The position numbers and the translations under genes are program-made. Positions 6,127 through 48,200 of a DNA stretch of 64,000 nucleotides are shown here, piece after piece. Below the pieces are notes generated by a model, which was not told where the DNA came from, did no database searches, and saw nothing but the letters and a program-made list of their open reading frames with translations. Source of the stretch: Polytrichum commune. Taxonomy: Eukaryota > Streptophyta > Polytrichopsida > Polytrichales > Polytrichaceae. Position 1 is the stretch's first letter. Each line of letters starts with the position of its first letter. Location of the stretch: assembly GCA_950295325.1 (NCBI GenBank), contig OX485803.1, positions 7,626,001 to 7,690,000 of the forward strand, given 5' to 3'.

Positions 6127-6272
6127 CATAACATTATTCAGATTCATAACAATGTTTTGTGGGATTGACAATATTTCATGGAATATTCTTCATATCCATA
6201 CTGAAGATGGGAATATTATGTGGAATACTATCAATTCCACATAACATTGTTTTGGATTTGAATAATGTTATG
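6127..6272. mobile_element. Palindromic 146-bp MITE, copy A
   Basis: A nearly complete foldback. It opens with CATAACATTATTCA and closes with the complement TGAATAATGTTATG, and the arms pair along most of the length around a centre near 6200. A second copy with the same ends is at 42867-43015. There is no coding capacity. Confidence 0.75.
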
Positions 6273-7690: not shown

Positions 7691-7704
7691 TGACTCTTTA
7701 TTCA
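7691..7704. repeat. Target-site duplication of the large LINE (3' side)
   Basis: TGACTCTTTATTCA here is repeated exactly at 22377-22390. It directly follows the element's short ATA/TTA-rich tail, as expected for target-primed reverse transcription. Confidence 0.85.
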
Positions 7705-7720
7705 ATAATAATAACAACTT

Positions 7721-7740
7721 CGGTCTCCGAAAGGAGACCG
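7721..7740 (-). promoter_or_regulatory. 3'-terminal hairpin of the LINE, copy 1
   Basis: CGGTCTCC-GAAA-GGAGACCG is a perfect 8-bp stem with a 4-nt loop, 16 bp from the element's 3' end. The same position in copy 2 (44986-45006) also forms a hairpin with a different sequence. In LINEs with stringent 3' recognition such stem-loops are the template signal for their RT; that role here is inference. Confidence 0.65.
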
Positions 7741-7920
7741 ACGTGAATTAAGTGTCTGTTCGATCTACCTTCAATCCCAAGCCCACAGGACAGAGGTATG
7801 AAGGAGAAGATCTACTCCCCCCTTTCGAGAGTAGACACTTTAGACACAATAAACCAATAATGTAAACTACGCCTAATATAATACCCCGTGCCCCTTACCC
7901 CTAACTTTTTAAGTTCTGAG

Positions 7921-9072
7921 TTATGGGGGGTCTGGATTTTGGGGGAGTGGTTGGTGGTTTTCAATTCTCCTCTTATGGAGGAGGATAGACATGGCATATT
8001 GTATTGCAATGGTGTTAATATTTTTGAACGTATTTTTTATGGTGGCCATGGGTATTTTGAAATTGGTCTCTAGTGCTTTCATAGATAGGATGTGGGCAAT
8101 AGCTTTAGCACCAGCTGTGATGACAATAAGTGGTTCGATTTTCCATCCTCTGGAAGCAATGCTAGCAATTAGTGGGTTGTATTTGTTATTTTTTGCTTCA
8201 ATTGCTTATGGGGAGAATATGTCATTGCAGTATGTGAATTCAATAAATTGTATGGTGAGGTTAGGGTCAATGTCGCTGGGAGGGACATTTTGATATGGTA
8301 ATTCCTTAACACAAAGGATGTCATGTCTAAATCTTGTGTTGCAGTGACATCTTTGTGTACTACATGTGCAGGGGAGTAGCCAGTTGGGGACTGTGTTTTC
8401 TTGGGGGTTGTTATTGAAGGTGCCAGCATTCATGAGAGTAAAGCATCGGGATTTTTCTGATGAGATTAGGAGTTTCCTAATTTCCCCAACTGCTTTGTTA
8501 TGTCTTTTAACTCTAAGTGAGTGTATATGTTGGTGTTTACATGTAAGTAGTACATGCAGCCATGTATCTGGTTCGTTTGAGTTGCATATGGGGCACGTAA
8601 TAGTGGGATATCTTTGGTGACCAAAGAACATTTGTTTCCTCGCATTACCCATGTAGGTTCCTGTGCGGAATTTGATGAGGCATGATTTTTGTTTGTCGGT
8701 GATAGCATGATTTGCCCAAAATTCGTTCGACAGCTCTTTGTCTATATCAACATTTTCTGTCCATTTACAAGTGTTGGGGGTTTGTGTGGCCATGATTGCT
8801 AGGTTTGTTTCCCTATCATATTTTTTAATTTGTTTTTCTAGGAATCTGACTGGGCCTTTGTCCGGAACGTCTTCCATCGAGGCCCATACGTCTTTTTGGT
8901 AGTAGTAAGGGGTGGCGTGGGCATGTTCGTATGAGTGAATGGCAATTTTGTGTTCTAATTCTAATCCTTCTTTTGCTAGTTTATCTGCTTTTTCATTGCC
9001 GTCAATGTTGACGTGTGCTCTAACTTTGTATAGTGTGATTGGTTGTGTCCGTTTTTGAAGGATTTTTACCAT
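7921..9072 (-). pseudogene. LINE ORF2 3' part: RNase H end, CCHC finger, PD-(D/E)XK-like nuclease
   Basis: The 288-codon frame (9072-8206) starts with the last RNase H motif (a KVRAH segment, then DGNEKADKLAKEG with the catalytic Asp). Next is a C-x2-C-x9-H-x4-C finger with DTWLH in the middle, RVKRHNKAV, and a Cys-rich stretch ending CHC. It then reads DILCVKELP and QFIEFTYCND before a frame break. The homologous region of the second copy reads RPDILCVKG, FIEFTYCND and NNKYKPL. That PD...E-x-T...K-x-x-KY layout is how the restriction-like endonuclease of R2-type LINEs looks. Here RPD is RHD, so the nuclease is probably damaged. The tail (8205-7921) is frameshifted. Plus-strand frames over this stretch are shadows. 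Confidence 0.7.
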
Positions 9073-9077
9073 GGAGG

Positions 9078-9842
9078 CTAGTGTGGTTTGGTCTGGGTGA
9101 CTATTATGAAGTGTGGGATGTTAATTTGTGTGTTAAGTAGGTATAATACGTTTAGACTGTCTGTGAATATGAATGCGGGTTCGTTGGGATATTGTGTATT
9201 GATAATTCTTAGTGTTTCGTGTATAGCAATCATTTCTGCTCGTAATATATTTTGGTGTCCATGTAATCGATTGGCGATGTTTAGCCCTTTGGGGCTGTAG
9301 ATACCATATCCAGCTCTTTCTCTTCTCCATTCCCCGGGGGCTATTTCTTTGGGTTTCATAAACGAGCCATCAATGTAATAGCTGAATTGGGGGTGGAATT
9401 TTAGAGGTAGATTTGTCTGGTAGTTAGGGAGTTGTGGGATGGGGATGTTATTGTATAGGAGTATATTTGGGTAATTTGATTTAGACCATTTTTTACTAGA
9501 GTTCACGGTGATGTTTGAAGGGGTGGGTGGTGCAATTTGGGTGTGGCTTTGTAGTATTTGGATATTATCGGCTATGTCCTTTAGTAATTTCATTTGTTCA
9601 TAGGTGCCTATGTTACTGTTTTGGTGGTGGATACAGAATATTTGTAGGGTAGATGATTCTTTTCTTGTAATATTGAGTTCGGGGGGTATTGTGGGTTCTT
9701 CATATGTGATCGTGTCAGCGGCAAAGTGGGCAATGACGTGTGTGTCCAGGAAAGGACCTGTGTGCGGGTTAGAGTTTTTGTACCATTCGGTATCCGGGGA
9801 TATAAGTATAGTGATTGTATATGGGTCATTTTGGGCCGCCAT
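9078..9842 (-). pseudogene. LINE ORF2: RNase H domain (copy 1)
   Basis: This open stretch of about 254 codons carries an RNase H type I domain, which degrades the RNA strand of RNA:DNA hybrids. Visible motifs in order are YYIDGSF (first catalytic Asp), ILRAEMIAIHETL (catalytic Glu) and FIFTDSLNVLYLL (third Asp). The fourth Asp lies in the next frame at 9072. N-terminal to it is the end of the unknown domain (AAQNDPYTITILISPD) and a Pro-rich linker. A frameshift at each end separates it from neighbouring ORF2 pieces. The first frame residue is internal, not a true start. The Glu kept here is Lys in copy 2. Confidence 0.75.
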
Positions 9843-9946
9843 GCGAGCCTAGTGAATGGCTTGTTGTAAGTTTGTTGCGTTGTGGGGGTGAGCGTATCCA
9901 ATTCCTTGCTATTTGTGGTCAAACGCTTTCCCTAGGGATCCAAATA

Positions 9947-10396
9947 TTATGTCACGCGAGAATGGTGAGTAGAATTGGGTAATTGTGTGGGACATGTTAC
10001 TGGGGATGAAAAGTATGAATGGTTGATATTGAATGTTGTTATTAGGAGATCTAATATTGGGGTTGGTATTGTGTATTGGGCACGTTTGAGTGGGTCATTT
10101 TTTGGAATACGGTATTTGTATATTTGATATAACCAAACAATTTCAGTTTCGAAAAATTGGGTGGGTGGTTCTAGACTATGTGTGGTGTTTTTTGCCAATT
10201 GGTATTGTTTCCATAACCACATTAGTCTGGTTTTCGGGATGGTGATGAGGTGCCGACCATTGTCTTCGTATATGTGAGCGACATCAAATTGTATTTGGAT
10301 AGTGTCAGAGTTTGTTTCGATGTCATTTTCTGGGTTACATTCGTTACTAGAGATATGGGCTAGTGGGCTTATTGTGGTTGGTGTGACGTATCTCAT
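9947..10396 (-). pseudogene. LINE ORF2: segment between RT and RNase H, unknown fold
   Basis: This 149-codon stretch is homologous to the start of the 765-codon frame at 45414-47711. It reads HIYEDNGRHLITIPKTR, ETEIVWLYQIYKYRIPKNDP and HSYFSSPVTCPTQ before a frameshift. In copy 2 it continues with FYSPFSRNIIFGSLGKAF, KWQGIGYVHL and ITILISPDTNWY. The spacing of an FGS block, KWxG, a short turn, an alanine-rich helix and a ILxxPD-W strand recalls Dam-like or PCIF1-like adenine methyltransferase folds, but no canonical NPPY/F motif is present. I treat the function as unknown. Confidence 0.55.
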
Positions 10397-11290
10397 GTCT
10401 CTTTGTTGTTCTGTGGAGAAGTAGGCATTAATAATGTTTGAAAAATGTTTGTGTTGTCTTTCCGTGTAGTAGTGGGTAAGTAGGTCGGTGTTCTAGTTAC
10501 ATGTGTTGGCGTCGCAGTAGGGGTATAAGTCTTTTGGAGTTCGCCATTTGTTGTATGTGTGATTATTTGTTGTAGCCCATTGACATAAGTATGACGTGAC
10601 TGTTCTTTTTATTCCGTTATGGTCGTTAGAATATTTTTGTTTGTGATCGAGTATTTTGTGTATGGAATATTATCGGGGGTCTTTAAGTATATTGTTGGGG
10701 GGAGGGGGTAGAGGGGGGATGGGAGGGTTTGGGGGTGTATGGGTGGAGTCGGTATGTGCGGTAGGATGTTGTGGTGTCTTATTATATATTTGTTTTTGAG
10801 GGATCTGGGTGGGTGGTATCGTGGGCATGGTAGGGGACATTCGTAGTTACAAGAAGGGTGGCAAAATAGTTGGTTAGCGATATTTAGTGCACTTTGGATG
10901 AATTTGGAGGGGGTGGAGTGGTAGATTTTGAATTATTCTTGGTTCATTAGTGTGGTGCCATTAGGCATGGTTATTTGGTCTAGTGTTGTTATATTATGTA
11001 TGAGAAATTTGTGTAATAATTTAAGTGATGTGTTGGGATTTAGACCTTGTAGCATTTGTGCTTCTTGCATCCACGCATTTCGAGTGGGGATGGGTGTAGT
11101 AGGAAGTTGTTAATTGTACTTTTTAGATGAACTCCGGCTTCATGCTTGAGCAAGAATAATGTTCTAGTGATAGGTGATCTAACACAGTGGTGGTATTTAA
11201 TACGGGAAATTTCTTTTAGAGCCCTCATATTTGGCAAGAATAAATTGCATTAGGCTACTATAGATTTTGCCGATTCGACCTTTATCATTA
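10397..11290 (-). pseudogene. LINE ORF2: degenerate region downstream of RT
   Basis: Several frameshifts break this stretch. The matching part of copy 2 (48182-47931) encodes a Cys/His-containing run with SYLCQW, WRTQRDLYPYC and HYYKERQHKHF, possibly a zinc-binding knuckle. Here the same words occur in pieces near 10440-10680, next to a G-rich tract (C-rich on the coding strand) at about 10690-10740. Confidence 0.5.
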
Positions 11291-12700
11291 AGGGCGTTTT
11301 ATAGTTGTTCACCAATACATCTTAAGTAGGCATTTTGTAGTGAAAATGCTTCAATTCCGAATAGGTTGTATGGAAGTTGTGTAGCGATGTTAGATGTGCA
11401 TTTGGGTATTCTACAAATCGTTTTATGGAGTGCTATGATTTTTTTATCAAGTTTCTTAATAGCTGGTATGAAGTATGGTACTGCATAAAAACTATATGCT
11501 ATCCCAGTACGAATGACTGTATCTGCCATGTTGATTTTTTGTTTAATAGTAGCTGGGCATGTTACGAGGGCTTGACATTGTTTGATTACTTTAGCTGTAG
11601 TGGTATTTATTTGTGTTTTCCATTTAAGTGATGGTGCGAGGTTTATTCCTAGATATGTGTATGGTTCGTGTTGGTTTAGGGCTAGTATAGGTTGGTTTCT
11701 ATAATTTATGTTGGTGGCCTGGATTAGGCCTTGAAGGTTGTGGGGTTAAGTTTGGATTTGTTTGGGCATCCAGTCACTGCACATTTGGATATTCCGAGGT
11801 CCATTCCTGCCTATTCGCAGAATTTGTCTAGTTTATTTAGTTGTGTTTGTAGTGTCTCTAGTTTGTTGGCGATCGCGGCTAGGTCATATGCTGCTGATGA
11901 GATTTTAACTTTGGATGTACCAAAGGTATATCCATTGTTCTCATGTTGTAGTCATCTGAGGAGAGGGTTCTAAAAATATGATAAATAGATATGGGCTAAG
12001 GGTATCGCCTTGTATTGTACCTCTTTAAATGAGAATTGGTAAGGTTTTTCCAAAATGTTCTCCAGTAAATATGATTGAGGATTGTGAGTATATGTTTCCT
12101 TTGAGGTTTATGGAGTCATTAGGGTATCCTAGGTCTTTCATTATGGCTAGGAGTCGGGCGTGGTCAATGGAGCCAAAGGCGTTTTTGAAGTCAATGTAGA
12201 GAATGTATATATCTTGATTTGTGAGTCTTGCGTCTTCAAGTGCTGCGATTAGTATTTGGATTTATCTGGAAGTACTTCTTTCTGCTCTGAACCCTTCTTG
12301 GCTATCGTGTAGTATTTGGTATCTTTCGTCATACGCGGATAGGATGGAGGTTAATGTACTTGTGTAAAGTTTATATATTGTGTTAGCTAGTGCGATAGGC
12401 CTGTGATTTGTTAGTTGTGATGGGTTCCCTTTTTTATATAGTAAAACTGTTAGACTAGTTTTCCATGATGCGGGAATTTGTTTCTGTTTGTAGCAGTGTT
12501 TAAAAAATAGGAAGAGTAGTTTGTCGAAACGCGGAGGCAAATTGTTTAGGATTGAGTTGGGAATTTTGTCTGGACCTGGGGCTTTGTTATTACTTAGGTT
12601 TTTAAGACAGAGGTCGTAGGTTTCTTGGTCAAAGTACGTGTGTAAGGGGATTTGGGGTTCTCCTCGTTTGTCAATTGTGTATCCTTCTAAGTCATGCCAT
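11291..12700 (-). pseudogene. LINE ORF2: reverse transcriptase (catalytic motif damaged)
   Basis: Reading the minus strand, the RT has NKAPGPDKIPNSIL (motif 0/1, about 12580), then IPASWKTSLTVLLYKKG and a segment ending RPIALANTIYKL. Next comes SQEGFRAERSTSR, followed by one in-frame stop. Motif A then reads LYIDFKNAFGSIDHARL (about 12185), motif B has QGDTLSPYLF (about 12000), and a thumb region has FYAVPYFIPAIKKLD (about 11490). At motif C (about 11880-11900) only AAYDLA remains where YxDD is expected, so this enzyme cannot polymerise DNA. The domain starts abruptly at the insertion junction near 12700. Confidence 0.75.
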
Positions 12701-14645
12701 GGATATCACAATCACTAAATCTAACTAATAATTCTAACCTATAGATTCAAAGCCCCAAGACTTGGAGACTCACCCCGGGATAAGTGTCGAAGTCGAAATT
12801 CCTAAATTAATTATCCATCTAAAAATTTAATGAGCTACCGATCTTCGGTTTCTTTTGATGTTCTTATCAAAACCCCAAGAAGGTGGCGAACGTACCTTCG
12901 CCGCACTCCTTCCTCAAAAATGAAATTGCATAATTGACAATGTAATTCATTCCAAGAAATTAATTGAAATACAACTACTCTAATAAAGTCAAATATAAAA
13001 CCCAAGATAGAAACTTACCGCACCTCGAGTGCTCCTTCCTCTCTCTCAAGTTCGTATCTCCACATTCTCCTACTTGCCTCTAAGTCTTCTAGTTGCCTCC
13101 AAGTCTTTTAACTACTACCCACTTCACTCCCGGCGGACGCACCATTTATGTGAGGCCAAATCCACCCCCCTTTAGCGTCCTAGTCCGGGTGATGACTTTG
13201 AGAATCACATGTGTCTATTACAACATTGAACCGTGTGCAAGGTAATTTTCATGTTCAAATGAACACATATTGTCTCATTCATTGTGTTTAATTAATGTTA
13301 GCCTCTTGGCTTGTGGTAGAGTTAGCTTTCTCAAGAGTCCAACCCGCAGCTTTAGCCACACATGTCCTTAAGGATATTCCCCTCACTCTTTTAATCTTCA
13401 CTTCTTTTTTTTCTGCCATTGCAAGAATCCTCCACATTCTCCATTGATTGTACACGTGAATTATGGTGACTTGAGAGTGTACAAGTGTTAAGAAACACTT
13501 TACTCCATAGTCAATGTTAAATACAATCACATGTGACTTCCACACACACATCGCCTATCCTATTGAGCTTAACACTTGTCTAGGAACTATTTTAATCTAC
13601 AAATGGTCTAAACCCCTCATGGCTAGTTTAGTGGCACCCCCTTCTTAATCTTAACCTTAGCTCGCTAAACCAGCCAACCGGCTAATTAACCTATCGGTCC
13701 AAATCTGGCCTATTTACCGGCAGTCCCTTGGTTAACCTGGAATCAACATCTAAGTTGGGTGCAGTTCGGCTGCCCAGCAGCAACTAAGTTGGGTGCAGTT
13801 CCAGCTGCCAGCAGCAACTAAGCTCGGTGTAGTCTCGGCTGCCCAGCAGCAACTAAGCTGGGTGCAGTTCCAGCTGCCAACAACAACGAAGCTCGGTGTA
13901 GTCTCGGCTGCCCAGCAGCAACTAAACTGGGTGCAGTTCCAGCTCCAAGCCGTGTTTAGGCAGATGTCTAATAAGTCCTAACAACTATTCTCAACCCCTA
14001 ATATTTAATCGAATATTCCTCTAGTCCCTTGACCAATGAATGAACACATCCCACTAATTTCACTAAACTAACCCCTAATCCTCCTAGGCAATCTCAAGCT
14101 CTAAGAGCTCACTCACTTGGGAGGCATTGAGAGAGAGAGAACTTAACTAATTAACTTTACGAAAAACTACTAACCCACACACGTGGCTCAAGCTCTTAAG
14201 AGCTTGCTCCCTTGAGAGCGCTTGATGGAGAGAGAGAAAAATAAGAGAGAAACCACCTTAAGTAGTAAAGAGGGAGAGAGGGAGAGAGAGGTAAGGATAG
14301 GGTGAGAAGATTAGCACCTCCAATGACAATCCCTTAACCTTCACCTCTAAAGTAGAGACTAATCCCCTTCCACCAAGCTTCCTTCTTCCTAAACTAACAA
14401 GGTGGATCCAAAAGTGGGCATTTAACCCGCGGAGCTCACCTTGCTTCACCTTACTCCATACTCACATTATCAAGGCATACTCTTATTGATTTCAACCGTA
14501 AAATAATCACACAAAACATTCTAATGCCTAAACTTAAATCCACACCACACTTCATTCTTTTTATGTTTTGTGAATAACATAACACCTCAAAGTCAAACAC
14601 GAATTGGGTTCGAAGTGTTAATCACCACATGTGGGCACCATTTTG
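12701..14645. mobile_element. ~1.9-kb foreign insertion inside the LINE
   Basis: LINE coding similarity stops near 12700 (after a minus-strand LEGYTIDKRGEP) and resumes near 14646. The intervening DNA differs in base composition (C-rich on the plus strand) and has no LINE-like frames. It holds a 34-35-bp minisatellite (13752-13955), a partial internal duplication (AGCTCTAAGAGCT-type blocks near 14096 and 14190) and GA-rich runs. I found no TG...CA ends with a matching duplication and no transposase, so its class (solo LTR, non-autonomous element or other) is open. Boundaries are approximate. Confidence 0.5.
13752..13955 (+). repeat. 34-35-bp minisatellite, about six units
   Basis: Units start near 13752, 13786, 13820, 13855, 13889 and 13924. 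Each is built on AAGYTSGGTGCAGTTCC and CTGCCCAGCAGCAACT, and two alternating subtypes (CTGGGTGCAG versus CTCGGTGTAG) suggest higher-order duplication. Confidence 0.8.
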
Positions 14646-15400
14646 GGTTCACAGCAGTGTAGTGGATGTGTATTTTGATGGTGGCATGTGGGGACTGTTG
14701 GGCGGTTACTGATAGATTGTTGCGCGTAAATTTCTGATGCAATGTCTTCAGGGTTAGTTAATATATAATTTTGTCTATCAATGATGGAATCAAGAGGTGA
14801 GGTTTCAGTGTTTTTGAAGACTTTACGGTTTTTTTTTTGGTTTTTTTTTCATACATTTGGCGGTATTTTGATACGGCTTTTAGAATGCAGTCTTTGGTAT
14901 ATTTTGTTGTGATTTTCTTGGCTGCTTTATTTGCAGTTTTTGCGATGGTTGCTATGGCATTAATCCATTCGGCAGAGGGTGGTATTATAGCAGGTGGATG
15001 TGGCATGTTGGTGATTTCGGATATCGTTGAGGATGGGATGTGTTAGCCAGTGTGGGTCATGTTGTGCTATGTATATGGTTTTCCTAATGAGGTGATATGT
15101 ATTGAGGTATCTTTCCCATTCTCTAGCTAGTTTGCGTGGAAGAAAACCACCTTGTTGTGATGTTCTGTTTGTAAGGCTAGGTAATGGGTCCGCTTTACAG
15201 GTTTTTTCAATTGTTTCTGAGATTTTGTTTACAATGTAATCCATTGATGTACAGGTTTCTTGTCATTGATCAGATGTTAAGTGTCGTGGGTTTTTTAGTA
15301 ATATGGTAAGTGCTTTTAATTGTGTAGAATTTTCTTCAAAGAATGTTATGTTGAATTTTTCTAGGTTTTTAAGTGGTATCGGGTTCAGTATTCTAGTTTG
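14646..15400 (-). pseudogene. LINE ORF2: endonuclease-RT linker
   Basis: Open stretches at 15244-14960 and 15006-14758 encode a helical Lys-rich linker: QQGGFLPRKLAREWERYLN, then IATIAKTANKAAKKITTKY. The two frames overlap in different phases, so at least one frameshift lies between them. This is the usual place for the linker between APE endonuclease and RT. No catalytic motif is present. Confidence 0.6.
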
Positions 15401-16610
15401 TTAGGTGTTTGTAGGGGGTGGGGGTCTCGCTATAAGTGTGTTGTGTAGGATGTGTAATATGACTGGGTAGTGGTCTGAATTTAGATTCATGTTTGTGTTT
15501 GTGGTAGAGATGAATTTGCTGTTGTCCGGGGAGTGAATGTAGAAGCCATCTATTAGGCTTGTTGATGTGTAATTATAGTGTGTATATGTGGTTAGGGTGT
15601 GTATTGATTTGGTGGTGATTTCGTTCTTAAGGTGTGGGATGAGACATGTGTCTTCTAAGTGTGTAGGCATATACATGTATATGATTAACCATGGTATTAG
15701 TGGATGGTTGTTTATTATTATTATTTGTAGATACGGGGAGATGTTTGCTGGCGTGGGAATTTTGGTGACATTTCCCGGGAATGCATATTTATTATGGATA
15801 AGTGTGAGTAGGCCACCTCTTCCGGGAGTATAAGGCATTCTTTGTTGAATGCACCTTGTGAGTGCGTGCGTGTTGTTAAAAATGAGTTTGAATTCTGGGA
15901 ATAGGTTTTGTATATATTTTATAGATTTGTTTGCAGTAAGTTTGGTTTCTTGGATATGTATGATTGCCGTGTTATTTAGATAATTATTTATTAGGCTTTG
16001 TAAATTTGGTAATGATATGTTGATTGATGATGCGTTCCATGTTATTATGTTAGTTTCGTGCTCGGTGTTGAAATAGATTCTTGCGATTGGTGTGGGAGCG
16101 GCTGGGAGTGGGGGTGGGTGTGAGTATTCGTCAATGTTTTCTAAACATCTAAGTACTTCGGTTATCAACTGGTTTGGGAGGAAAGGGAATTCTTTCTTGA
16201 GGGTGATTGATGTGGGTGTGGTTACTTGGTTGTGGATGAATTCGTATATTTTTGTATGTATTGAGTTATGAGGGAGTATTATATTTTTATTGTTTTCTAT
16301 AAATGTTGTGTAGGGGTGCGGTGTCAGTATGTGTCGCTCGGGGGGGTTTGCGAGGTTAGCTAGTCTAATGATTAATGTGTTGGTCCATATGTTATTAAAG
16401 TGGTAGTTTTGGGGTTGGGCTAGTATGTTATTGCATGTGTCTATTGAGGGATGGATGGTAATGATTAGGGCGTATAGCATATGGGTTGGTGGTGATTGAT
16501 TTTGTGTTTGGGTATATTGGTGTAGATGTGGGTATGTAGTGATTGCTTGGGGGTGTAGTGGGTGTGTGTGTTTTAGTATAGGGGCGAATGTATTTGCTAT
16601 GTGTTGGTAT
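15401..16610 (-). pseudogene. LINE ORF2: APE-type endonuclease
   Basis: The 359-codon frame from 16480 contains an exonuclease-endonuclease-phosphatase domain, which nicks target DNA to prime reverse transcription. Motifs in order: IITWNASS (metal-site Asn), HIQETKL (catalytic Glu), GRGGLLTLIHN, IYMYMPTH (the Y-x-P block), TSTSLIDGFY and NSDHYPVIL (SDH motif). The GDFN block expected between YMPTH and TSTSLIDG is missing and the interval is about 70 residues short, so an internal deletion has probably inactivated it. The frame stays open upstream of 16480 through IPNTIKLQPEYQHIANTF to the A14 tract at 16654-16667, where it meets the frame carrying the 2A motif. Confidence 0.8.
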
Positions 16611-18824
16611 TCAGGTTGTAGTTTTATAGTATTTGGAATAAAATATGTGTTGGTTTTTTTTTTTTTTTGTAGCAGGGTGTGTACGTAGGATATTAGGCAT
16701 TGGTCCAGGGTTGAGTTCGATGTCCCCGCATTTTACCAGATCTAGTTTATTAATGAAGTAGTATCCGTAAAATTGCAATGTTTTTGGTTTTCTCATATTT
16801 ATTTTAAGGTATTTTATGTAAGTGAATTTGGTTGTAGTAAAGAGGTTAGGCATAGCGGGTATGATTTTTTCTACTAATTTGTGTGGGAAGTATGACGTTG
16901 CATTATTTGTAGGTAGCGGGTTTGTTACTGAGTTAGGCTTCCATTTGTTTATGAGGTGGTATGTGTCGTTGTTTGTGTGGCGAGGCCGGTAGATCGAGGC
17001 CGTTTTGTTTAGTGGGTAGGGTTTATATTTTGAGTAAGGGTAGTTATATTTTTGGTGAGGTTCGTATTTAGGGAGTAGGTGGTGTTTTGAGTGGGGGTAA
17101 GGTGTGGGGTTTGGATGCAAATTGTTTGTAGGGTGAAGCTTGTGAGATTTTGGGTTGGATTGGGTTTCTTGTTTTGGATGAGAACTATACACTGGTTGGT
17201 ATTTGTGTTTTGAATATATTTTGGTTTTTGGATGCATTTTGTGTTTTAGATGGATTCTATAATTTGGATGAAGCTTGTCTCGTGGATGAAGATTGTGTTT
17301 TGGATAAGGGTTATATCTTGGATGAGAATTGTATTGTGGGTGGGGCCGGGGTATTTTTTGTTTTGGGTGGGTATCATGTTGTGGGGCGGGTGTTATATTT
17401 CCTACTTGGTTGGGTAAAGGGCGTGTTTTGATTGCTTTTTGGTTTTTTATGCGTACGGTTTTAGTTGTGGTGATCGGGTAGGGTAGGGTGTGTGTATTGT
17501 TGCTTGGTTGTTTAGGTGTGAGAGGAGAGTTAGGTTTTGGTTGTGTTTTTTGTTTTGGATGTAGGCTATGCTTTGGATGTGATTTGAGTTTAGAGTGAAG
17601 TCCATTTCTTGGGAAGTACCTATATTGTGAGAGAAGCCGGTGTATTTTGAGTTTTGGATGAGTGGTAAGTTTTGGATGTGTAGTGTATTTTGTTTGGGGA
17701 TTGTATTTAGGGTGGTTGTTAGTGTAGTTTGGTTCATTTATAAGTTGTATACTTGATGTATTTGAGGTAGTAGGGGGGTATCTATATAGGTTATTTGTTT
17801 TTGGTTTTGTCGTACTTGGTTTTTGGTTTTTAATGAGTGCTAGTTTTGTTGTAGAAGAAATGTGGTGTAGGGTGGGTGTTATGTTTTGTTGTTGTTTGGG
17901 TACGGGGTGTGAGTTCGCATAGTATTTAGGCATTTGATTTGTCCTTAAGGTAGGATTCCAATTGGTGAGGTGGTTTTTGCGGTTGGTTTTGTGGCAAGGC
18001 CGGTAGGCCGAGGCCATTTTGTTTGTTGGGTATTGTTTGTATTTTGAGTGGGGGTTGGGTTGTGAGTGGGGGTAAAGTATGTGTTTTGGGCGGGGTTTGT
18101 GTTTAGGATGTAATTTATTTTTTTGGTATGTCTTTGGGTTAGGATAGGTTCCTTGTTCATGGTGTGGGTTATGTTTTGGATGGGATATGTGTTTTGAGTA
18201 AGTTATGTGCTTTGGATGAGATCCGTGTCTTGGGTGAAAGTAGTTTGTTGGATGTGATATGTGTTTTGGGTATTTTACGTATTTCGGGGTGTGTGTAGTG
18301 TTACTTGATTGTTTAGATGTGAGGGGGGGATTTAGTTTTGGGTGTGGTCTTTGTTTTGGATGTAGATTATGTTTTAGATGCGGTTTGGATATAGGATGAA
18401 GTTCGTTTCTTGGGAGGTACCTATATTGTGAGTGAAGCCGGTGTATTTTGTATTTTGGATGGGAGGTATAATTTGGATGTATGGTGTATTTTGTTCGGGG
18501 AGTATGTTTTGGGTGGTTGTTGTTGTGTGGGTGGTTAGTGTAATTTGGTTTATTTATAATTTTTTTAATTATATTTGATGTACTTGAGGTAGAGGGGTAG
18601 TGTCTTTGTAGGTTAATTGTTCTTGATTTTTGATATTTAATGAGTGTGAGTTTTGTTGTAGAAGAAGTTTGATGTAGGGTGGGTATTATGTTTTCTTTTT
18701 GTTTGGTTGAGGGGTGTGCGCTCACATAGTATTTAGATATTTGATTTGTTATTGAGGTAGGTTCCCAATTAGTGGGGTGGTATTTGCGGTTAGTTTTGTG
18801 GCGAGGCCGGTAGGCCGAGGCCAT
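16611..18824 (-). CDS. LINE ORF2 N-terminal part: His/Pro/Lys repeats plus 2A motif
   Basis: This 737-codon open frame is almost entirely low-complexity H-P-K-x-x dipeptide-type repeats (for example HPKHNLHPK), basic and probably disordered. Three large units each open with (M/T)AS(A/I)YRPRHxTN, at 18824, 18017 and 17003, so the repeat is about 0.8-1.0 kb. Near the end it reads DLVKCGDIELNPGP, a 2A-like motif, and about 30 codons later it ends. The frame is lost at an A14 tract (16654-16667), beyond which the endonuclease frame continues in another phase. The true ORF2 start probably lies upstream, near 19472, in the same phase. I know of no homologue for the repeat part. Confidence 0.65.
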   Translation of the reverse strand: MASAYRPRHKTNRKYHPTNWEPTSITNQISKYYVSAHPSTKQKENIIPTLHQTSSTTKLTLIKYQKSRTINLQRHYPSTSSTSNIIKKIINKPNYTNHPHNNNHPKHTPRTKYTIHPNYTSHPKYKIHRLHSQYRYLPRNELHPISKPHLKHNLHPKQRPHPKLNPPLTSKQSSNTTHTPKYVKYPKHISHPTNYFHPRHGSHPKHITYSKHISHPKHNPHHEQGTYPNPKTYQKNKLHPKHKPRPKHILYPHSQPNPHSKYKQYPTNKMASAYRPCHKTNRKNHLTNWNPTLRTNQMPKYYANSHPVPKQQQNITPTLHHISSTTKLALIKNQKPSTTKPKTNNLYRYPPTTSNTSSIQLINEPNYTNNHPKYNPQTKYTTHPKLTTHPKLKIHRLLSQYRYFPRNGLHSKLKSHPKHSLHPKQKTQPKPNSPLTPKQPSNNTHTLPYPITTTKTVRIKNQKAIKTRPLPNQVGNITPAPQHDTHPKQKIPRPHPQYNSHPRYNPYPKHNLHPRDKLHPNYRIHLKHKMHPKTKIYSKHKYQPVYSSHPKQETQSNPKSHKLHPTNNLHPNPTPYPHSKHHLLPKYEPHQKYNYPYSKYKPYPLNKTASIYRPRHTNNDTYHLINKWKPNSVTNPLPTNNATSYFPHKLVEKIIPAMPNLFTTTKFTYIKYLKINMRKPKTLQFYGYYFINKLDLVKCGDIELNPGPMPNILRTHPATKKKKNQHIFYSKYYKTTT
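16654..16667 (-). other. A14 homopolymer at the 2A/endonuclease frame junction
   Basis: Fourteen T on the plus strand (A14 in the LINE RNA). The frame with the 2A motif enters it and the endonuclease frame leaves it in a different phase. Both frames read sensibly up to the tract. Confidence 0.75.
16701..16742 (-). other. 2A-like ribosome-skipping motif
   Basis: The minus strand encodes DLVKCGDIELNPGP, matching the 2A consensus D-(V/I)-E-x-N-P-G-P. In known 2A sequences the ribosome skips the bond between the last Gly and Pro (codons 16704-16706 and 16701-16703). That would release the His/Pro/Lys repeat protein from the downstream endonuclease-RT part. Such motifs are known near the N-terminus of some trypanosome and animal LINE proteins. 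Confidence 0.8.
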
Positions 18825-19472
18825 TTTGTTTGTTGAGTATTGTTTGTACTTTGAGTGGGGGTTGGGTTGTGAGTGGGGGTAAGGTATGGGTTTTGGATGG
18901 GGGTGGTGTTTAATTAGGATGTAATTTCTTTTGTTGGGATGTCTTTAGGTTAGGGTGGGTTTTTTGTTTATGGTGTGGGTTGTGTTTTGGACGAGGTGTG
19001 TGTTTTGAGTAAAGTGTGTATTTCGGGTGGAATCTATGTCTTGATTGAAAGTAGTTCGGTGGATGACGTATGTGTTTTGGATACTTTCCGTACTTCGTAT
19101 GAAGGTTGCTTGTTGGGTGGGGGTTGTGCTCTAGGTGGTAATTATATTTTGGGTGAAGATGGGGTACTTTGTACTTTGTATGTATACTGTATTTTATACT
19201 GATACTGTATTCTATATGATATTTTTGTATGGAAGGTATATGTATTCTGGTATATGTATTGGGTGAGTGGTTTGTTGGGGCATATCGTATTGGAGTAGAT
19301 GTGAGGTATGTTCATATTTTGTATAAGTTTTTTGACATCGTATGCTACTTTGTATGAAACTAAGGTATAGTATGTTTATTCTAGTATGTATTTGTATTCT
19401 ACTATATACTTCTACGTATTTAGGGTAGTATTGTAGTAAATACTTTTTTTTTGCTTGGCAGTTTGTGGTCAC
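18825..19472 (-). pseudogene. LINE ORF2 5' end, broken
   Basis: An 86-codon frame (19472-19212) begins at the end of ORF1 and is in the same phase as the 737-codon frame. It overlaps the ORF1 stop as GAGTGACC (ORF1 uses the TGA; the second frame reads GTG ACC). It ends at a TAG near 19212. Between 19170 and 18828 lies a fourth, partial copy of the His/Pro/Lys repeat, frameshifted near 18910. The simplest reading is one ancestral ORF2 from here to the 2A motif, later broken. Confidence 0.55.
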
Positions 19473-21358
19473 TCCACATTTGGTTGGTCTTTAAGCATGA
19501 GGTTTGGGTTTACCAATCCCGTAATTTGTTGCATCCCGGTAAGTGCCAAGGTCAAAGTGCTTTGGATGTCCAACATTTGCTTTTTTAGTTTATCGTTTAT
19601 TTCATCCGCATAGATGTGTGCCTCTCTTACTATATCATCCTTTAAGTCCTTCATGTCTTTGTGAAATTCAATTTTAAGTTTCTTGTTGCCTTCTTCAATT
19701 GCCTCCTTCATGACGGTGAAAACGTCCTCCTTTGTTGCACTAGTCTCCTCTTGGGTTTGGTTTTGGATGGCTTCGATTGTGTTTACCAAACACGTATTAG
19801 TATCTTCAAAACCAAATTTGACTAGTAATTCTTTGGTGGGTTTGTCGATACCGTCAAGGCTTCGGAGGTGTGGGGTAATTTCCACATGATAGGCTCCAAT
19901 TTTTGCTTCTTTCCCTACAAACTTCCTATACACAAAGGGGTTAAGGCATTCCACATTAGCACTACCATTGTGTCTCAAGCCATCTTGCTTGTGGAACCAA
20001 ATGGATACAACATTTTTGGTTCCTAATACTTTGCAAATTTCAAGGGAGGTATCCTCAATATTCATCAAGATGGGGAGGTTGTAGAAGGTTAGGGTAAGAG
20101 CCTCTTTCTTTGCCTTTTGCTCCAAAGTAAGAGAGGGACCCTTTGTCACTTGACCTTCTAGTATTTGGTGATGTGTAGATACTTGGAGTTTTTGGATTTT
20201 TTGGGCTTGGTGGGGGGTAGGAGCAACAATGTAAGCATGGTTGTTAGTGGTGCTCTTTTGTACCTCTACAATCTCGAAATTATGGCCTCTCCTAAAGCTA
20301 TTCTCTAGGATATCTAGAAAAAGAGCATGAGATGATATACCAATCAATGTGTCGTTTGAGATTTTGATGGAGAGGTTGTTGCTTCTAGCAATGGAGTGAT
20401 ATGACTTACATACCTTGCCAAGACTTCCAACGTTTGAGTGGGGCTCAAGGTGGAGGATAAAGGGTCTAAGACCCGTGAGTAGTGCTACTCCATCAACTTG
20501 GGGATGGAGGAGGTGGAGTTTGACTATCCCAGCCCAAACTCCCTTAATCCCACCCCTCTTGATACTCATGCAAAGAATTGAGATGGGTTCTATAAGTTTA
20601 GTGCCTAATGAGATATGCATATCATTTAGCCTTTCCTTGACAAGCTCTTTCACATGATTATGGAAGAGGGGGTTGTTGGGGAGCTGAAAATGAATGGCTA
20701 TTTGAAAATCTAGAGACATGCATGAGATAGGGTCAATTTCTATCTCAGACGGTAGTTGAGTAAGATTAAGATGTTGCCCCGGGAATCCATCACTCCTTTT
20801 ACTAGGGTACAGTATTTGTGGCACTCTAGGGTAGGAGATGCTTACACTTTCTAGCTCTTCAGCATCTTTGCGGGGGATGCCTCTTGTAACTTTGTCATTG
20901 ATGGTTTCGTCCATGTATAACTCATCTAATCCCTGGTCCATGGCAAGTTTTTCCATAACATCAAACCCAAGCCACATTTTAAGTGGTTGTTCAGAGGTGG
21001 GTACCGTGGCTTGGACCGCTTTCGGTGGTGACGGTAGGTGTGGAGAAGCTACTGCTGGGTCCCGACTTCTCTTCCCGCTCGCTGCCCCCTTGGGTGGAAT
21101 TTTGGCCTTTTCTGCCAACAGTTTTTTGAGACTCTGGGCAGGGGAGTCTATCTCCATCACATCGTCTTCTGCACCGAAAACTTTTGCCAGGGCCATGGGG
21201 ATTAGGCTCCCGCTTGCTGTACTCTCGTTTCGGTGTAAGGTTTTCGGCATTGGTGTCAAGTTTGGGTTTCGGTGTAGACTGCTACGGGATTCGGTGTAGT
21301 GGTGTCGTCGTTGTGGATCGCTGGCACTTCTGATGTTTTTGCTTTTTTTTTTTCCCAA
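19469..21358 (-). CDS. LINE ORF1 (RRM-like and coiled-coil RNA-binding protein)
   Basis: This is an intact 629-codon frame, the best preserved part of the element. It has a basic N-terminus (GKKKSKNIR, possibly a nuclear signal) and a Ser/Pro-rich region to about residue 120. After a conserved middle part, an RRM-like segment lies at about 420-520 (ALTLTFYNLP as the first strand; SANVECLNPFVYRKFVGKE; YHVEITPHLRSL). A charged coiled coil follows at about 540-610 (TVMKEAIEEGNKKLKIEFHK onward). LINE ORF1 proteins bind and chaperone the element RNA. The frame opens with TTG at 21358; the first in-frame ATG is at 21250. The A-rich run just after 21358 may have shifted an older start. The RRM call rests on pattern only. 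Confidence 0.7.
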   Translation of the reverse strand: MGKKKSKNIRSASDPQRRHHYTESRSSLHRNPNLTPMPKTLHRNESTASGSLIPMALAKVFGAEDDVMEIDSPAQSLKKLLAEKAKIPPKGAASGKRSRDPAVASPHLPSPPKAVQATVPTSEQPLKMWLGFDVMEKLAMDQGLDELYMDETINDKVTRGIPRKDAEELESVSISYPRVPQILYPSKRSDGFPGQHLNLTQLPSEIEIDPISCMSLDFQIAIHFQLPNNPLFHNHVKELVKERLNDMHISLGTKLIEPISILCMSIKRGGIKGVWAGIVKLHLLHPQVDGVALLTGLRPFILHLEPHSNVGSLGKVCKSYHSIARSNNLSIKISNDTLIGISSHALFLDILENSFRRGHNFEIVEVQKSTTNNHAYIVAPTPHQAQKIQKLQVSTHHQILEGQVTKGPSLTLEQKAKKEALTLTFYNLPILMNIEDTSLEICKVLGTKNVVSIWFHKQDGLRHNGSANVECLNPFVYRKFVGKEAKIGAYHVEITPHLRSLDGIDKPTKELLVKFGFEDTNTCLVNTIEAIQNQTQEETSATKEDVFTVMKEAIEEGNKKLKIEFHKDMKDLKDDIVREAHIYADEINDKLKKQMLDIQSTLTLALTGMQQITGLVNPNLMLKDQPNVE

Positions 21359-22376
21359 TCTCCAACTCCCGGCTCCCCTCCTTTTCGGTGTAGTCTAGTC
21401 TTGATGTAGGCTGGGGCTGGTTTCGAAAACAGGTCCTCGTCTTCGCCGAAAACAGATCCTCGCCTTCGCCGAAAACAGGTCCTTACCTTCGCCGAAAACA
21501 GGTCCTCCCCTTCATCGAAAACAGGTCCTCGCCATCTCCGAAAACAGGTCCTCGCCTTCGCCGAAAACAGGTCCTCGTCTTCACCGAAAACATGTCCTCG
21601 CCTTCGCCGTGGGCTCCGAAACCAGCTCGGTGAAGATCTGTTTCGCTACCGGCTTGGTTACTTTTCTGTCGATGCAGCTGGTTCCTTTTCTTGTTGTGGG
21701 CTCGGTCTCTGTAAACTCGATCGAGTTGGTGTAGATGTCTGTACCGGGTCGCTACAGGGGGATCGGACTTGATATGTGGCCTCCGTAGGTGTGATTTTGG
21801 ATCTGCTGTCCATATACCTATACTAGATAGAGGGAGTAGAGAGAGTGATACTGCAATGTGTATGGCAAGGAGAAGGAGCCTATGGCTCCCTCTGTATGTC
21901 ATTCTATCTATTTGTCTGGAGAGTGATCCTGGATCGGTGCCGCGACTGTGAGTAACGGTGTGTTTGTGTCCTTGGTGCTACGTTTCCTCACAAAATGTGA
22001 TGCTTCGGTTACAGATCTAAAGTCTACAAGCAGGGAGATGAAGTTTTCTAACACATTGTAACCAATCAAGGCCCCAGCTCATCAGAATGCCCTAATCTTG
22101 AGATCTCGACTCTTACTCACACATACTTCAAACTTTAGATCTAGTACCAAGCATACACATGTACCCCTTCCAACACATTCAAGCACCTTTCCAAACACAC
22201 TGACCTAACTGTTACTCTGATGTGTGCGGGGTGACTGCAAGTCCAGCTCCAGGCAGCGCACACATCCTCTACAGCGGCTAACTCCTCAGTCACTCACCTC
22301 TCCAGGAAATACGGAGCTCTCAGCAGCTCTTCATCCTTTCCGCCCCTCTTCGTTGTGAAAACTACTTAACCAAACC
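21359..22376 (-). promoter_or_regulatory. LINE 5' leader / presumptive internal promoter
   Basis: About 1 kb of GC-richer DNA between the 5' target duplication and ORF1. It includes a 24-bp minisatellite near ORF1. Full-length LINEs carry their promoter in this region. I could not identify specific promoter elements. The 139-codon minus frame at 21902-21483 is mostly minisatellite and not a credible gene. Confidence 0.5.
21425..21611 (-). repeat. 24-bp minisatellite in the LINE leader, about eight units
   Basis: Plus-strand units follow GAAAACAGGTCCTCGCCTTC plus GCCG with few substitutions (CTTACC, CTCCCC, CCATCTCC variants). The period is 24 bp, a multiple of three, which is why frames stay open across it. 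Confidence 0.85.
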
Positions 22377-22390
22377 TGACTCTTTATTCA
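22377..22390. repeat. Target-site duplication of the large LINE (5' side)
   Basis: TGACTCTTTATTCA, identical to 7691-7704; the bases just outside differ. Confidence 0.85.
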
Positions 22391-27545: not shown

Positions 27546-27769
27546 GTGACATTTCCTTAGCCAATGTTGGCATTCATTCTTTCGTAATCCTAATTATCTA
27601 TTGGTTGGTGGATATTTGGGGTTGCTATGGTAGTTGTGTGTCTATTGGTAGTGGTTTGTGACAGTTCCTTAGCAAGTGTTGGCATTTATTCTTTCGTAAT
27701 CCTAATTATTTATTGGTTGGTGGATATTTGGGGTCGCTATGGTAGTTGTGTGTCTATTGGTAGTGGTTC
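27546..27769. repeat. 112-bp tandem duplication
   Basis: Two adjacent units (27546-27657 and 27658-27769) share long stretches, including TTCTTTCGTAATCCTAATTA and GCTATGGTAGTTGTGTGTCT, with few differences. The unit contains the last codons and stop region of the adjacent LINE fragment. Confidence 0.85.
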
Positions 27770-28028
27770 ATTGTTTTCTATCCTCCTTTTGTATAGAATT
27801 ATGGACATAGGATGTTGTATGATGATGACGTTGATTGCCTCAAATGTGTGTTTGATGCTTAACTTAGGGATTTTGAATGTTGTTTCAATACTTTCCATAG
27901 AAGGAATGTATGTGGCTGCCCTAGCACTTGTTGTGATTAGTAGTGGGTCTACCTTCCAACCTCTGTTGATAACATTGTTTATTAGTGGTTTGTATTTGTC
28001 TATTATTCGGATTATAGTTTCATCTGGT
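27757..28028 (-). pseudogene. LINE ORF2 C-terminal fragment (fourth copy)
   Basis: The minus strand translates without interruption as IDKYKPLINNVINRGWKVDP, then SARAATYIPSMESIE and YKRRIENNEPLP. This is the tail of the PD-(D/E)XK-like domain seen in the other LINE copies (KYKPLIDSIASRGWKIEPL). Only about 90 codons remain. Plus-strand frames here are shadows. Confidence 0.75.
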
Positions 28029-29279
28029 ATTCTATCATCACATGTGACCTACATATATGCATAAAGCTTACACATGTGATTCTTCTTCTTCTTCTTCTTC
28101 TTCTTCTTCTTCTTCTGTTTATGGTGTCTCTGTGCTGCCAAGCATGTTTGCGGCCGTCCAGGTCAATACAGCAATATACACACCTCATTCCAAAGGTTTT
28201 GTGAAGGGCTAAGTTAAGTGGCCCTCACCTACGAGCTATGACAGTTCAAGGGCACTTTGTGACTTAAAATTAGTTGTGGCTGCAATCAAAAAAGGAATGT
28301 GAATTAGCACACCGTGAGCATGCACTTTCATTGGTGACCTATCCTCTTATTTCAAACACTAGTTGCAATAGCCGCCGACTAATCGAGGACATGGTATGTC
28401 TAAGTTAAGTAGGTTTGTGTCACATACACTACACTAAAAAGGATATTTAGTGTTTGATACACTAAATACGAACGCATACACTAAATGTCAATAGCCCTAT
28501 GAAAGTAGGTAACATTAAATGTAAAATCAAACACTAAATATCAATTATGGTAATATGCGGAGGTTACATGTTTGAATTTAGTGTTAGTAAGGATATTAAA
28601 AAAAAAGATGAGAGATTAACAAGCAAGAAGGTGGGGCTCCATCTCATGTTCAGTGTAATCCATGCTTCACAAGAAGGGAGGTGGCAATAAGGAAGGTAGC
28701 GGCACATTCATGTCTAACACGAACTATCAAGGAATTGAAAATTAATGTTGAGTAGGGTAGGGTGGTAACAACATTGAATATAATCGAACACTCAATATCA
28801 TATTTAGTGTAGTTGCAAAGGATTACGCTAAGAGCAACACCATCACAATGGGCACCACTGCCGGAATGTGGAGCTAATTGCGGGTTGGAGTTGGGGTTGG
28901 TGAGAGTAGCCAAGGCCGACTATAATGATTACCCCAATTAGTGTGTGTGGTATTGATTCCGGAAACACACATTATTTGACTAAGTCTCAAAATTAATGAG
29001 ACCATATATAGTTTTTTACCGAGTGATATTAAATTTATAAATATGTGTTCATTTATCATCCATTTCAAAAAGAAAAAGAACAAAAAAGAAGTTCGTGTAA
29101 AACGTTTTAAGGTGTTTGTAGAGTGATGTAAACAATCATGTTTGTGAGTGAATATTGCCAGTACTTTTAGTGTATAGTGTCGGGATGAACAATGTTTTCA
29201 TAGATCTTTTGGTGGCACTAATTTTACAATTTTCAAATATTTAGAATCACCTTCATTATTAGCCCTCCCTCACTGATTG
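28029..29279. other. Gene-free interval with TTC microsatellite
   Basis: A TTC microsatellite lies at about 28080-28116. Repeated ACTAAAT/ATTTAGTG words at 28427-28570 look like broken ends of the MITE family at 145-366, and an ACCCCAATTAGTGTGTGT end occurs near 28931. No gene seen. Confidence 0.45.
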
Positions 29280-38408: not shown

Positions 38409-39597
38409 CTACACTAACCATGTTATTTAGTGCCACGAATTCCAATGGTCTTGCTCAATTGTAAACCTTGGTATAGTGTCACCAATACTAATGGGTGACC
38501 CAACATTACTTGTCAGTCCTTGTAATTTTTGTGGAAGATTCTAGGTTTACTACATTGCAATTGCGGTCACTCACCAAATGATTTTTCATTCAACGACAGA
38601 GATACATGGCCCCACTTACTATCCACGCGTGAACACCCATACCTAAAAGGCTTAAGAATAGCTCGCCATAATAAAGCGGTACACCTCATCACCAAAACAC
38701 TACAAGCCAACAAACACACCTGATTCTACACACTAACAAATGCAGGAAATCTCAACAACATGAACCAAGAACAAACAATCCCATAATGGCTCATAAAATG
38801 TACATGCCCACAAACAATTTGCCAATGCCAAGCCAAATTAAGACTGGATATCCTAAGTATACTAGGCGCCCCAAACCACACACCAACACCTTTACTACCA
38901 TCCCACACACACATAATACAATTCATTGAATTCACATATTGCCATGACAAATTTCCCGAGCAAGCCCTCATGCACAAACACACCATATACGACCCATTAA
39001 TTAACAACATACAAAATCAAGGATGGAAAACGAACCCCCTCATCACTATCACAGCTGGCGTTCGAGGAGCTATACACGAACAATCCATTAACAAGCTAAC
39101 CAACCTTAAAATCCCAAAGTCCAACATCAAAACCCTCATGAAAAATATACACCAAAATGCCATTAAATATCTTACCTACCTCGTTCTCAACAAAAGAAAA
39201 CTTGAAAATAAACAAGCTACTATCACACCTCCCTAAAACAAAGGGACTAAAACAAAACACTAGAGCCCACCTCCCAAAGAGGCATAAACCCTCATACTAC
39301 AACATGGTCCGCCGTGTTAAGTATTTGGATAACGGGCTCATATTCATGCCAGTACCGTGTATGGGCGTTATTTTTGTCTTCTTTATATTCTTTTTCTTTT
39401 TCATTCAAATTTTAATCATCCATGTCAATATTTCATCACAAGTTGTTGACAAGAGAAGGCAGGGTTTTGGCCGATGGATGAACTCATCCATCATCCATGA
39501 GAGTATTTGTAACCTTATTCATAAGAAGTGTCCTCCAAAAAGTTAGCAAAGCGACATTAAACACCATATGACACAAAATATTGTATTTTTAGTGTAG
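38409..39597. mobile_element. MITE interrupted by a LINE copy
   Basis: The ends are CTACACTAA (38409) and TTTAGTGTAG (39597). Removing 38594-39408 leaves a sequence that aligns throughout with 56069-56374: AGTGTCACCAA, GACCCAACATTA, CATCCATCATCCATGA, CGACATTAAACACCATA versus GACATGAAACGCCATA. It is a non-coding MITE-like repeat of about 375 bp. Confidence 0.75.
38594..39396 (+). mobile_element. 5'-truncated LINE (third copy) with 12-bp target duplication
   Basis: An 803-bp insertion bracketed by TTTTTCATTCAA at 38582-38593 and 39397-39408. It encodes the ORF2 C-terminus in the plus direction: DTWPHLLS (after the CCHC finger), LRIARHNKAV, a Cys-rich CTCPQTICQCQAKLRLDIL, QFIEFTYCHDKF, YDPLINNIQNQGWKTNPLI and TITAGVRG, ending near 39235. 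In-frame stops (near 38718 and 38794) make it dead. Compared with the other copies it is a diverged subfamily. Its RPD position reads RLD. Confidence 0.85.
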
Positions 39598-44958: not shown

Positions 44959-44985
44959 TATATTACTCAAAGATAGATAGAAACT

Positions 44986-45006
44986 CCGGTCCCTTTTAGG
45001 GGCCGG
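44986..45006 (-). promoter_or_regulatory. 3'-terminal hairpin of the LINE, copy 2
   Basis: CCGGTCCC-TTTTA-GGGGCCGG occupies the same position as the hairpin at 7721-7740. It is followed on the plus strand by the shared GTGAAT...GTGTC.GTTCG block. The loop and some stem bases differ, one pair changing on both sides. In the RNA sense one C-A mismatch is present. Confidence 0.65.
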
Positions 45007-45184
45007 CGTGAATAGAGTGTCCGTTCGTAATGCCAACAACCCGATGCCCACAGGACATGGGGAAGTTGGGACAAAACTACTCTCCTCTTTTGAGGATGGA
45101 CACTATAGTAACCGAGAAACAAATAACGTGGGCCGATCATGGCCCACGGCGGTGCATGCCTTTTAGGTATAATTAGTGTTTTTG

Positions 45185-45375: not shown

Positions 45376-45413
45376 GTAAATAGATACTAAATATTATATA
45401 AGTTTTTTGGGTT

Positions 45414-48187: not shown

Positions 48188-48200
48188 TATATTATTCAAA

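Follow-up and report, generated by a model that had tools for sequence, protein, structure and literature searches.

We analysed a window of 64,000 nt from Polytrichum commune (contig OX485803.1, within a 408-Mb assembly of 64 contigs) in which a long interspersed nuclear element (LINE) lies on the minus strand at 7705-22376, with its 5' end at 22376 and its 3' end at 7705. These bounds are set by homolog coverage and by an exact flanking duplication of 14 bp, TGACTCTTTATTCA, which occurs just twice in the window, at 7691-7704 on the 3' side and at 22377-22390 on the 5' side, as the first-pass annotation of this DNA had it. From 5' to 3' the element (window copy 1) carries open reading frame 1 (ORF1), a 2A/StopGo motif, an apurinic endonuclease-like (APE) domain, a reverse transcriptase (RT), a PCIF1-derived domain, an RNase H, a CCHC finger and the motifs of a restriction-like endonuclease (RLE). 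The first-pass annotation missed two of these parts, the 2A motif and the PCIF1-like domain. Stops, frameshifts and one insertion are found throughout the element when it is read from stop to stop, and the pieces of the RT, PCIF1-like domain, RNase H, finger and RLE are spread over three frames with many stops. Compared with its relatives it lacks the APE segment with GDFN as well as some of the RT catalytic region; because of the stops, these missing parts and an RLE that reads HD for PD, this copy is, judged from its sequence, dead.

The insertion (12706-14614, inside ORF2) contains 34/69-bp tandem repeats. It coincides with a gap in homolog coverage, having zero matches to the 240 proteins compared (249 fetched minus nine other LINEs), and was therefore taken as a later insertion; a search for repeats flanking it gave an 8-bp match only. 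Once this nested 1.9-kb stretch is removed the element measures 12.8 kb, which agrees with the size of about 12.7 kb first proposed for it.

Copies of the element in the window and in the genome

The window contains three further copies. The second (44972-48188, minus strand) is 5'-truncated, 86.6% identical to the first, bordered by a 12-bp duplication with one mismatch (44960-44971 and 48189-48200), and has a 767-aa open frame at 45414-47717. The third (38583-39230, plus strand) and fourth (27740-28042, minus strand) are diverged RLE fragments recognised by homolog coverage. Between the first two copies the ratio of nonsynonymous to synonymous substitutions (dN/dS) comes to 0.112 when the ORF2 frame is read (bootstrap 0.083-0.149), as against 1.43 and 1.24 for the two remaining frames; by segment it is 0.135 for the PCIF1-like domain, 0.139 and 0.068 for the linkers, 0.097 for RNase H and 0.111 for finger plus RLE. 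The 3' half of the element, from the PCIF1-like domain to the RLE, evolved under purifying selection, and therefore the source elements needed these domains.

A first look in the genome gave 6,760 candidates, and the 59 scored genome matches to the 767-aa frame consist of the query and 58 others at 92-96%. One locus has an ORF2 of 2,372 aa with the 2A motif, APE, RT, PCIF1-like domain, RNase H and RLE in order, and three copies, A, B and C, have an ORF2 of 2,625 aa behind a 747-aa frame with the same six motifs in order. Copies A, B and C were picked for the longest frames among the 59 scored matches and are for that reason not a random sample. They are mutually 99.3-99.6% identical over 10.2-11.9 kb, and this near identity, to which no rate was applied, indicates recent activity.

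Homologs of the parts number 66 for the 767-aa frame (PCIF1_WW in 40 of them, PCIF1_WW together with RNase H in 19, by precomputed Pfam), 144 for the 2A-APE-RT part, of which the best 120 are listed, and 63 for ORF1. Because of these and of the open copies in the same genome, the motifs of the element cannot be ascribed to chance. The last nine of the 120 listed matches (P0178-P0186) are other LINEs. P0067 and P0001 come from contigs of equal length (13,377), as do P0070 and P0189 (17,285), and the members of each pair may therefore be neighbours. Prokaryote contigs, viral contigs and phage records scanned for relatives contained none, and Rfam at gathering scores gave no match. One homolog, P0021, is filed under an archaeal metagenome-assembled genome (Candidatus Nitrosocosmicus) and is probably eukaryotic contamination.

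The 3' terminus of window copy 1 (7705-7762, minus strand) is a hairpin followed by a (TTA)n tail. The hairpin has a fold z of -3.95 with no shuffle as good, while in the other window copy z is -1.81 and 11 of 200 shuffles are as good. Both window copies have in common a 21-nt block near the 3' end; searching with the pattern derived from it, with up to three mismatches, gave no third match. The 3' ends of A, B and C have nearly the same sequence as window copy 2, followed by a (TATC)n tail of varying length, and no poly-A tail was seen at element 3' ends. The shared hairpin and tail would fit target-primed reverse transcription. In A, B and C a 12-bp sequence that overlaps the end of the (TATC)n tail by one or two bases is found again upstream; the repeats of A (TGGCCCCATAGG, about 12.7 kb apart) and C (TCCATTCTTAAC, about 12.0 kb apart) are in all likelihood target duplications. 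The copy with the 2,372-aa ORF2 (L009/L010/L013; C5:33403230, 33415160) has a 12-bp repeat, TGGTGCAATGAT, before ORF1 and after its (CTTTT)-like 3' end, which is a plausible target duplication from a search wide enough to produce one by chance.

ORF1 and the 2A motif

Upstream of ORF1 an array of about eight 23-bp repeats (21424-21609, minus strand) may act as a promoter. ORF1 itself is an open frame of 641 aa (19469-21394, minus strand) for which Pfam and PDB searches gave no usable family. Over 544 aa it shares 38.6% identity with the frame that precedes ORF2 in copy A, and over 482 aa it shares 28% with the 1,302-aa ORF1 frame of the locus with the 2,372-aa ORF2. Between ORF1 and the 2A motif lie two tandem repeats of about 805 bp (17486-19097, minus strand) in open frame, with a dN/dS of 0.76 in frame versus 0.80 and 0.66 in the other frames. 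The 777-aa open frame containing them was considered as a long leader protein and rejected for want of frame-specific selection; therefore only its last part, adjoining the 2A motif, is treated as coding. The repeats and their relatives are tandem copies of a leader starting ASAYRPRH, RPRH being present in 16 of the 120 among the matches listed.

The 2A/StopGo motif, LDLVKCGDIELNPGP (16701-16745, minus strand), is conserved in relatives. In window copy 1 it contains GDIELNPGP, which fits the consensus (D/G/C/N)(V/I)ExNPGP of PMC12846837. Among the matches listed D(V/I)ExNPGP is found in 30 of 120, or 37 of 120 with Q or H allowed for E, many of the 120 stopping short of the 2A region. When only those listed homologs are taken that have the APE-start pattern and at least 260 residues ahead of it, the motif is present in 24 of 26, and in 23 of these 24 it stands 207-218 residues before the APE start; in P0167, the one off-position case, it comes after the APE pattern match. 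The two homologs without it are P0095 (NPDP) and P0172, and damaged forms are seen in P0148 and P0160 (NLGP) and in P0165 (NPGS). Two 2A motifs about 145-270 residues apart in a single ORF2 frame occur at loci L011 and L012 and in homologs P0121 and P0128; such frames might free a third peptide.

The two endonucleases and RNase H

The N-terminal part of ORF2 with the APE lies at 15404-16732 on the minus strand and extends from the WNA motif (ITWNASS, 16025-16045) to the SDH motif (NSDHYPV, 15461-15481), with QETKL and YMPTH also present. These are the motifs that had been placed upstream of the RT in the first-pass annotation, and they are indeed there. Pfam gave no APE match in the broken window copy; PF14529 and/or PF03372 score above cut-off in four of 7 relatives scanned (P0068, P0093, P0071, P0128), and Exo_endo_phos_2 (PF14529) reaches 30.7 bits in the 2,372-aa ORF2 (cut-off 27.4). 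Of 32 homologs spanning the APE, 31 keep QETK and 30 keep [GS]DFN.

RNase H (8971-9383, minus strand, PF00075) is split by a frameshift in the window copy. The RNase_H match has an E of 2.2e-15 in the 2,372-aa ORF2 and of 4.6e-13 in copy A, lying between RT and RLE. It is followed by the CCHC finger and RLE motifs of PD-(D/E)XK type (8170-8595, minus strand), assigned by motifs and by a finger profile match: the finger at 8539-8595, IEFTYCND at 8221-8253 and KNNKY at 8170-8193. A CCHC finger with PD, EFT and KYKPL had been described here, and of these the finger and EFT stand; 'PD' reads HD in window copy 1 (RHDILC, 8311-8328) and 'KYKPL' reads KYNPL; both strings stand as quoted in window copy 2 (RPDILC, 45801-45818; KNNKYKPL, 45660-45683). 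All 17 homologs selected by the CCHC/RHNK finger alone have PD, E and K, and of the 15 genome loci extending into the RLE 13 show the triad by pattern. The finger matches PDB entry 8gh6, which we take to be R2Bm (like 8ibw presumably Bombyx R2; entry title 'Reverse transcriptase-like protein'), at E 0.095 and rank two when the initial RLE alignment (P0066 included) is used, and at E 8e-4 and rank one after a Utopia-like row was added. An RLE profile made without P0066 finds this protein at 2.9e-8 and Utopia-like proteins at 0.026-0.032, the best reversed control scoring 0.14. By its motifs and the finger match the C-terminal region would thus hold an R2-type RLE, and the failure to resemble RLE/PD-(D/E)XK nucleases that had been envisaged for it did not occur.

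The PCIF1-derived domain

Between RT and RNase H, at approximately 9590-10250 (minus strand), lies the PCIF1-derived (PCIF1_WW) domain. PF12237 matches at E 0.008 in the broken window piece, 3.8e-9 in window copy 2 and 3e-10 in copy A; in the 2,372-aa ORF2 E is 2.2e-6 at 27.8 bits, which is below the cut-off of 31.1. The best PDB matches of the domain are PCIF1 itself (6irx and 6irv, E 0.0033 and 0.017). That it is still an active adenine methyltransferase marking the RNA or DNA of the element is unlikely. PCIF1_WW is significant in 6 of 6 members of the domain alignment (best E 1.9e-13), the segment has the low dN/dS given above, and methyltransferases have entered other retrotransposons (PMC5890265), all of which speak for activity. 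Against it, the NPPF position reads AHPH in the window; a motif can be recognised there in 30 of the 66 homologs, being AHPH in 22, variants in 8 and NPPF in none (the other 36 did not fit the motif pattern), and 18 of 18 genome loci likewise read AHPH or a variant and never NPPF. The Pfam match in copy A, moreover, covers the first part of the profile and ends near position 104 of 176. Since NPPF is never present, we do not call the domain an active methyltransferase. NPPY, seen in four homologs, was considered as the catalytic motif and rejected, as it sits outside the motif IV position.

The domain has the PCIF1_WW family in common with the cap m6Am methyltransferase PCIF1/CAPAM and differs from it in the replaced NPPF and in its place within a LINE polyprotein. 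A methyltransferase-type domain is also carried by SymbioLINE-Dnmt and other retrotransposons (PMC5890265); SymbioLINE-Dnmt has a cytosine methyltransferase in an upstream ORF, while here a relative of PCIF1 is inside ORF2.

Reverse transcriptase and affinities of the family

The RT (11302-12705, minus strand) is broken by stops and a frameshift, and PF00078 is weak in its pieces and strong in relatives: RVT_1 has an E of 1e-32 in the 2,372-aa ORF2 (scanned with Pfam in two pieces) and of 2.6e-29 in copy A, whose RVT_1, RNase_H and PCIF1_WW matches all exceed the Pfam cut-offs. An RT profile built from 13 relatives has R2 proteins as its best PDB matches (1e-41, 1.5e-34, 2.1e-34), followed by L1-type entries (4.8e-23 and weaker; 8c8j we judge to be L1 from its sequence), while 8gh6 and 8ibw score 1.4e-21 and 3.2e-20. 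As these two fall under the L1-type entries, R2 stands on both sides of L1 in the ranking. In an RT tree of 20 rows the window RT joins six family members (100/99) and then P0175 (99/99); R2 (100/100), Utopia-like proteins (100/100) and L1 with P0186 (99/98) form separate groups, the order among groups being weakly supported (85/89). 'Utopia-like' refers here to the order RNase H-RT-RLE and the oomycete name of P0181, and 'algal-like' (P0175, P0066) to composition only. P0180 has the unusual order of APE-like motifs, then RNase H, then RT, and its RT is on a long branch.

It is improbable that the family is part of Utopia, or of some other RLE clade with an independently gained APE, and not of Dualen. 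The top PDB matches of the RT are R2 proteins, though 8gh6 scores below L1, and the Utopia-like RLE can be aligned with that of the family at the finger and K-KY; the CCHC/RHNK finger and PD-E-K motifs after the RT are common to R2, Utopia and the present family. In contrast, the Utopia-like RTs form their own tree group, and algal-like P0066, in which Pfam names nothing, gives an alignment (20% identity, E 1.5e-8) that takes in 92% of the PCIF1-RNase H-RLE query. R2 and Utopia are described as RLE-encoding, an APE beside the RLE being given only for Dualen in the part of PMC4640811 available; the present family adds an APE and its RT groups apart from theirs. An ordinary plant L1 with RNase H and RLE-like motifs arisen by chance is very unlikely. 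A review of 2022 (PMC9033089, as available) lists no plant LINE superfamilies other than L1 and RTE, yet the RT is apart from the L1 row, there is no poly-A tail, and the RLE triad is complete in all 17 homologs, with a dN/dS of 0.111 in the finger-RLE segment. Nor did the RT group with plant L1 or RTE, an outcome raised in the first-pass annotation, in a tree in which the L1 row pairs with P0186 and whose rows included neither plant L1 nor RTE. That an APE LINE and an R2-like LINE landed next to each other and were mistaken for a single element, as the many pieces and the insertion of window copy 1 could suggest, is refuted by the uninterrupted ORF2 across all motifs in four copies and by homologs overlapping the joint (P0076 from APE to past the RT, P0004 from after the RT to the RLE), and is practically excluded.

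Interpretation

From these results we conclude, with a probability of roughly 0.84, that window copy 1 is an old, inactivated member of a family of Dualen/RandI-type LINEs that has many copies and was active recently. The pairing of APE and R2-type nuclease in one LINE of this type, which was the main claim of the first-pass annotation, is supported by both motif sets standing in one ORF in the open copies. The best reading is that the family is a new lineage of Dualen/RandI-type LINEs, probably of plants. Dualen/RandI LINEs of green algae were reportedly described by Kojima and Fujiwara in 2005. Chlamydomonas Dualen has a cysteine protease, which is not a group-defining trait. In the literature Dualen/RandI LINEs have an APE before the RT and an RLE after it (PMC3636483, PMC4640811, PMC3747384), the tail of algal RandI is printed as (ATT)n (table of PMC3747384), and they are listed for green algae only in the available part of PMC4438587; LINE/Dualen has been reported in cryptophytes (PMC12747079). 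The present family is like them in the positions of APE and RLE relative to the RT, in RNase H and, in window copy 1, in the (ATT)n-like tail. It differs from the algal ones in the plant host and the 2A motif, and in a PCIF1-derived domain that is not mentioned for Dualen/RandI in the sources available.

Several points weigh against this conclusion. The RLE proper matches no nuclease structure, only the finger matching 8gh6, and the profile comparison with the Utopia-like RLE reaches a probability of 36% only. Pfam at E 0.01 reports no APE in the 2,625-aa ORF2 of copy A or in P0067, and no APE structure was matched at E 0.001. At the same E of 0.01 the 2,625-aa ORF2 shows only RVT_1, RNase_H and PCIF1_WW, and a cysteine protease was not seen in it. 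The RT tree has no named Dualen/RandI row, and P0066, used as a distant relative, is without a Pfam match at E 0.5. The dN/dS comparison covers the 3' half alone, APE and RT being outside it because copy 2 has neither. Copy 2 and A, B and C have a (TATC)n tail, so that window copy 1, with its (TTA)n, is the only one to resemble algal RandI in this respect. Copy B has two candidates for a duplication: TTTGAATTAGGA (about 12.5 kb) and, at a greater distance, a 12-bp sequence that overlaps it. Immediately internal to their 5' repeats A, B and C do not match one another, except weakly in A and B (74% identity over 113 nt), so the 5' ends of these copies are not established.

A possible course of retrotransposition can be outlined. 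ORF1 may be an RNA-particle protein, and the 2A motif would make the ribosome skip and free the enzyme from its leader. The two nicks would be made in turn, each by a different nuclease, with the RT starting on the 3' hairpin and tail at a nick by target-primed reverse transcription. The PCIF1-like domain, being without the catalytic motif, might bind capped RNA or position the template and would carry out no methylation. Only tentatively do we propose the full picture of a recently active plant dual-nuclease lineage in which skipping frees ORF2 and a captured cap-methyltransferase fold serves as a cap- or template-binding module that aids the selection of full-length element RNA.

APE-type LINEs with 2A were reportedly described by Odon in 2013. 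2A sequences are also known from trypanosome and sea-urchin elements (PMC4981915). The present family shares a 2A-like sequence with such LINEs, which are described as APE-type only, with no plant case among them in the text available. It would be a natural user of StopGo in a plant, whereas among plant viruses the motif seems to be absent, no natural use by them being reported in the accessible part of PMC12846837. It would also add a plant LINE lineage beyond L1 and RTE (PMC9033089) and put a PCIF1-derived domain in a retrotransposon. In the accessible parts of the open-licence literature searched we found no Dualen-type LINE in land plants, no report of a PCIF1-derived domain in a retrotransposon and no mention of two nucleases combined with a ribosome-skipping signal and such a domain. 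The recent open copies, the RLE under purifying selection, the conserved APE motifs and the many old copies make the division of labour between the nucleases testable. To our knowledge, why a LINE keeps two target-cutting nucleases has been an open question since the description of Dualen.

Other features of the window

Remnants of two transposases were found on the minus strand, DDE_1 at 40370-41107 (E 1.8e-17) and DDE_Tnp_4 at 1512-1946 (E 2.7e-6). An inverted repeat at 6127-6272, with 62-nt arms that are 82% complementary and 22 nt apart, resembles a miniature inverted-repeat transposable element. A gene of the DUF688 family, presumably plant-specific and the one gene here that points to a plant as host, lies at 59742-61481 on the plus strand (E 5.2e-10) in a GC-richer stretch.

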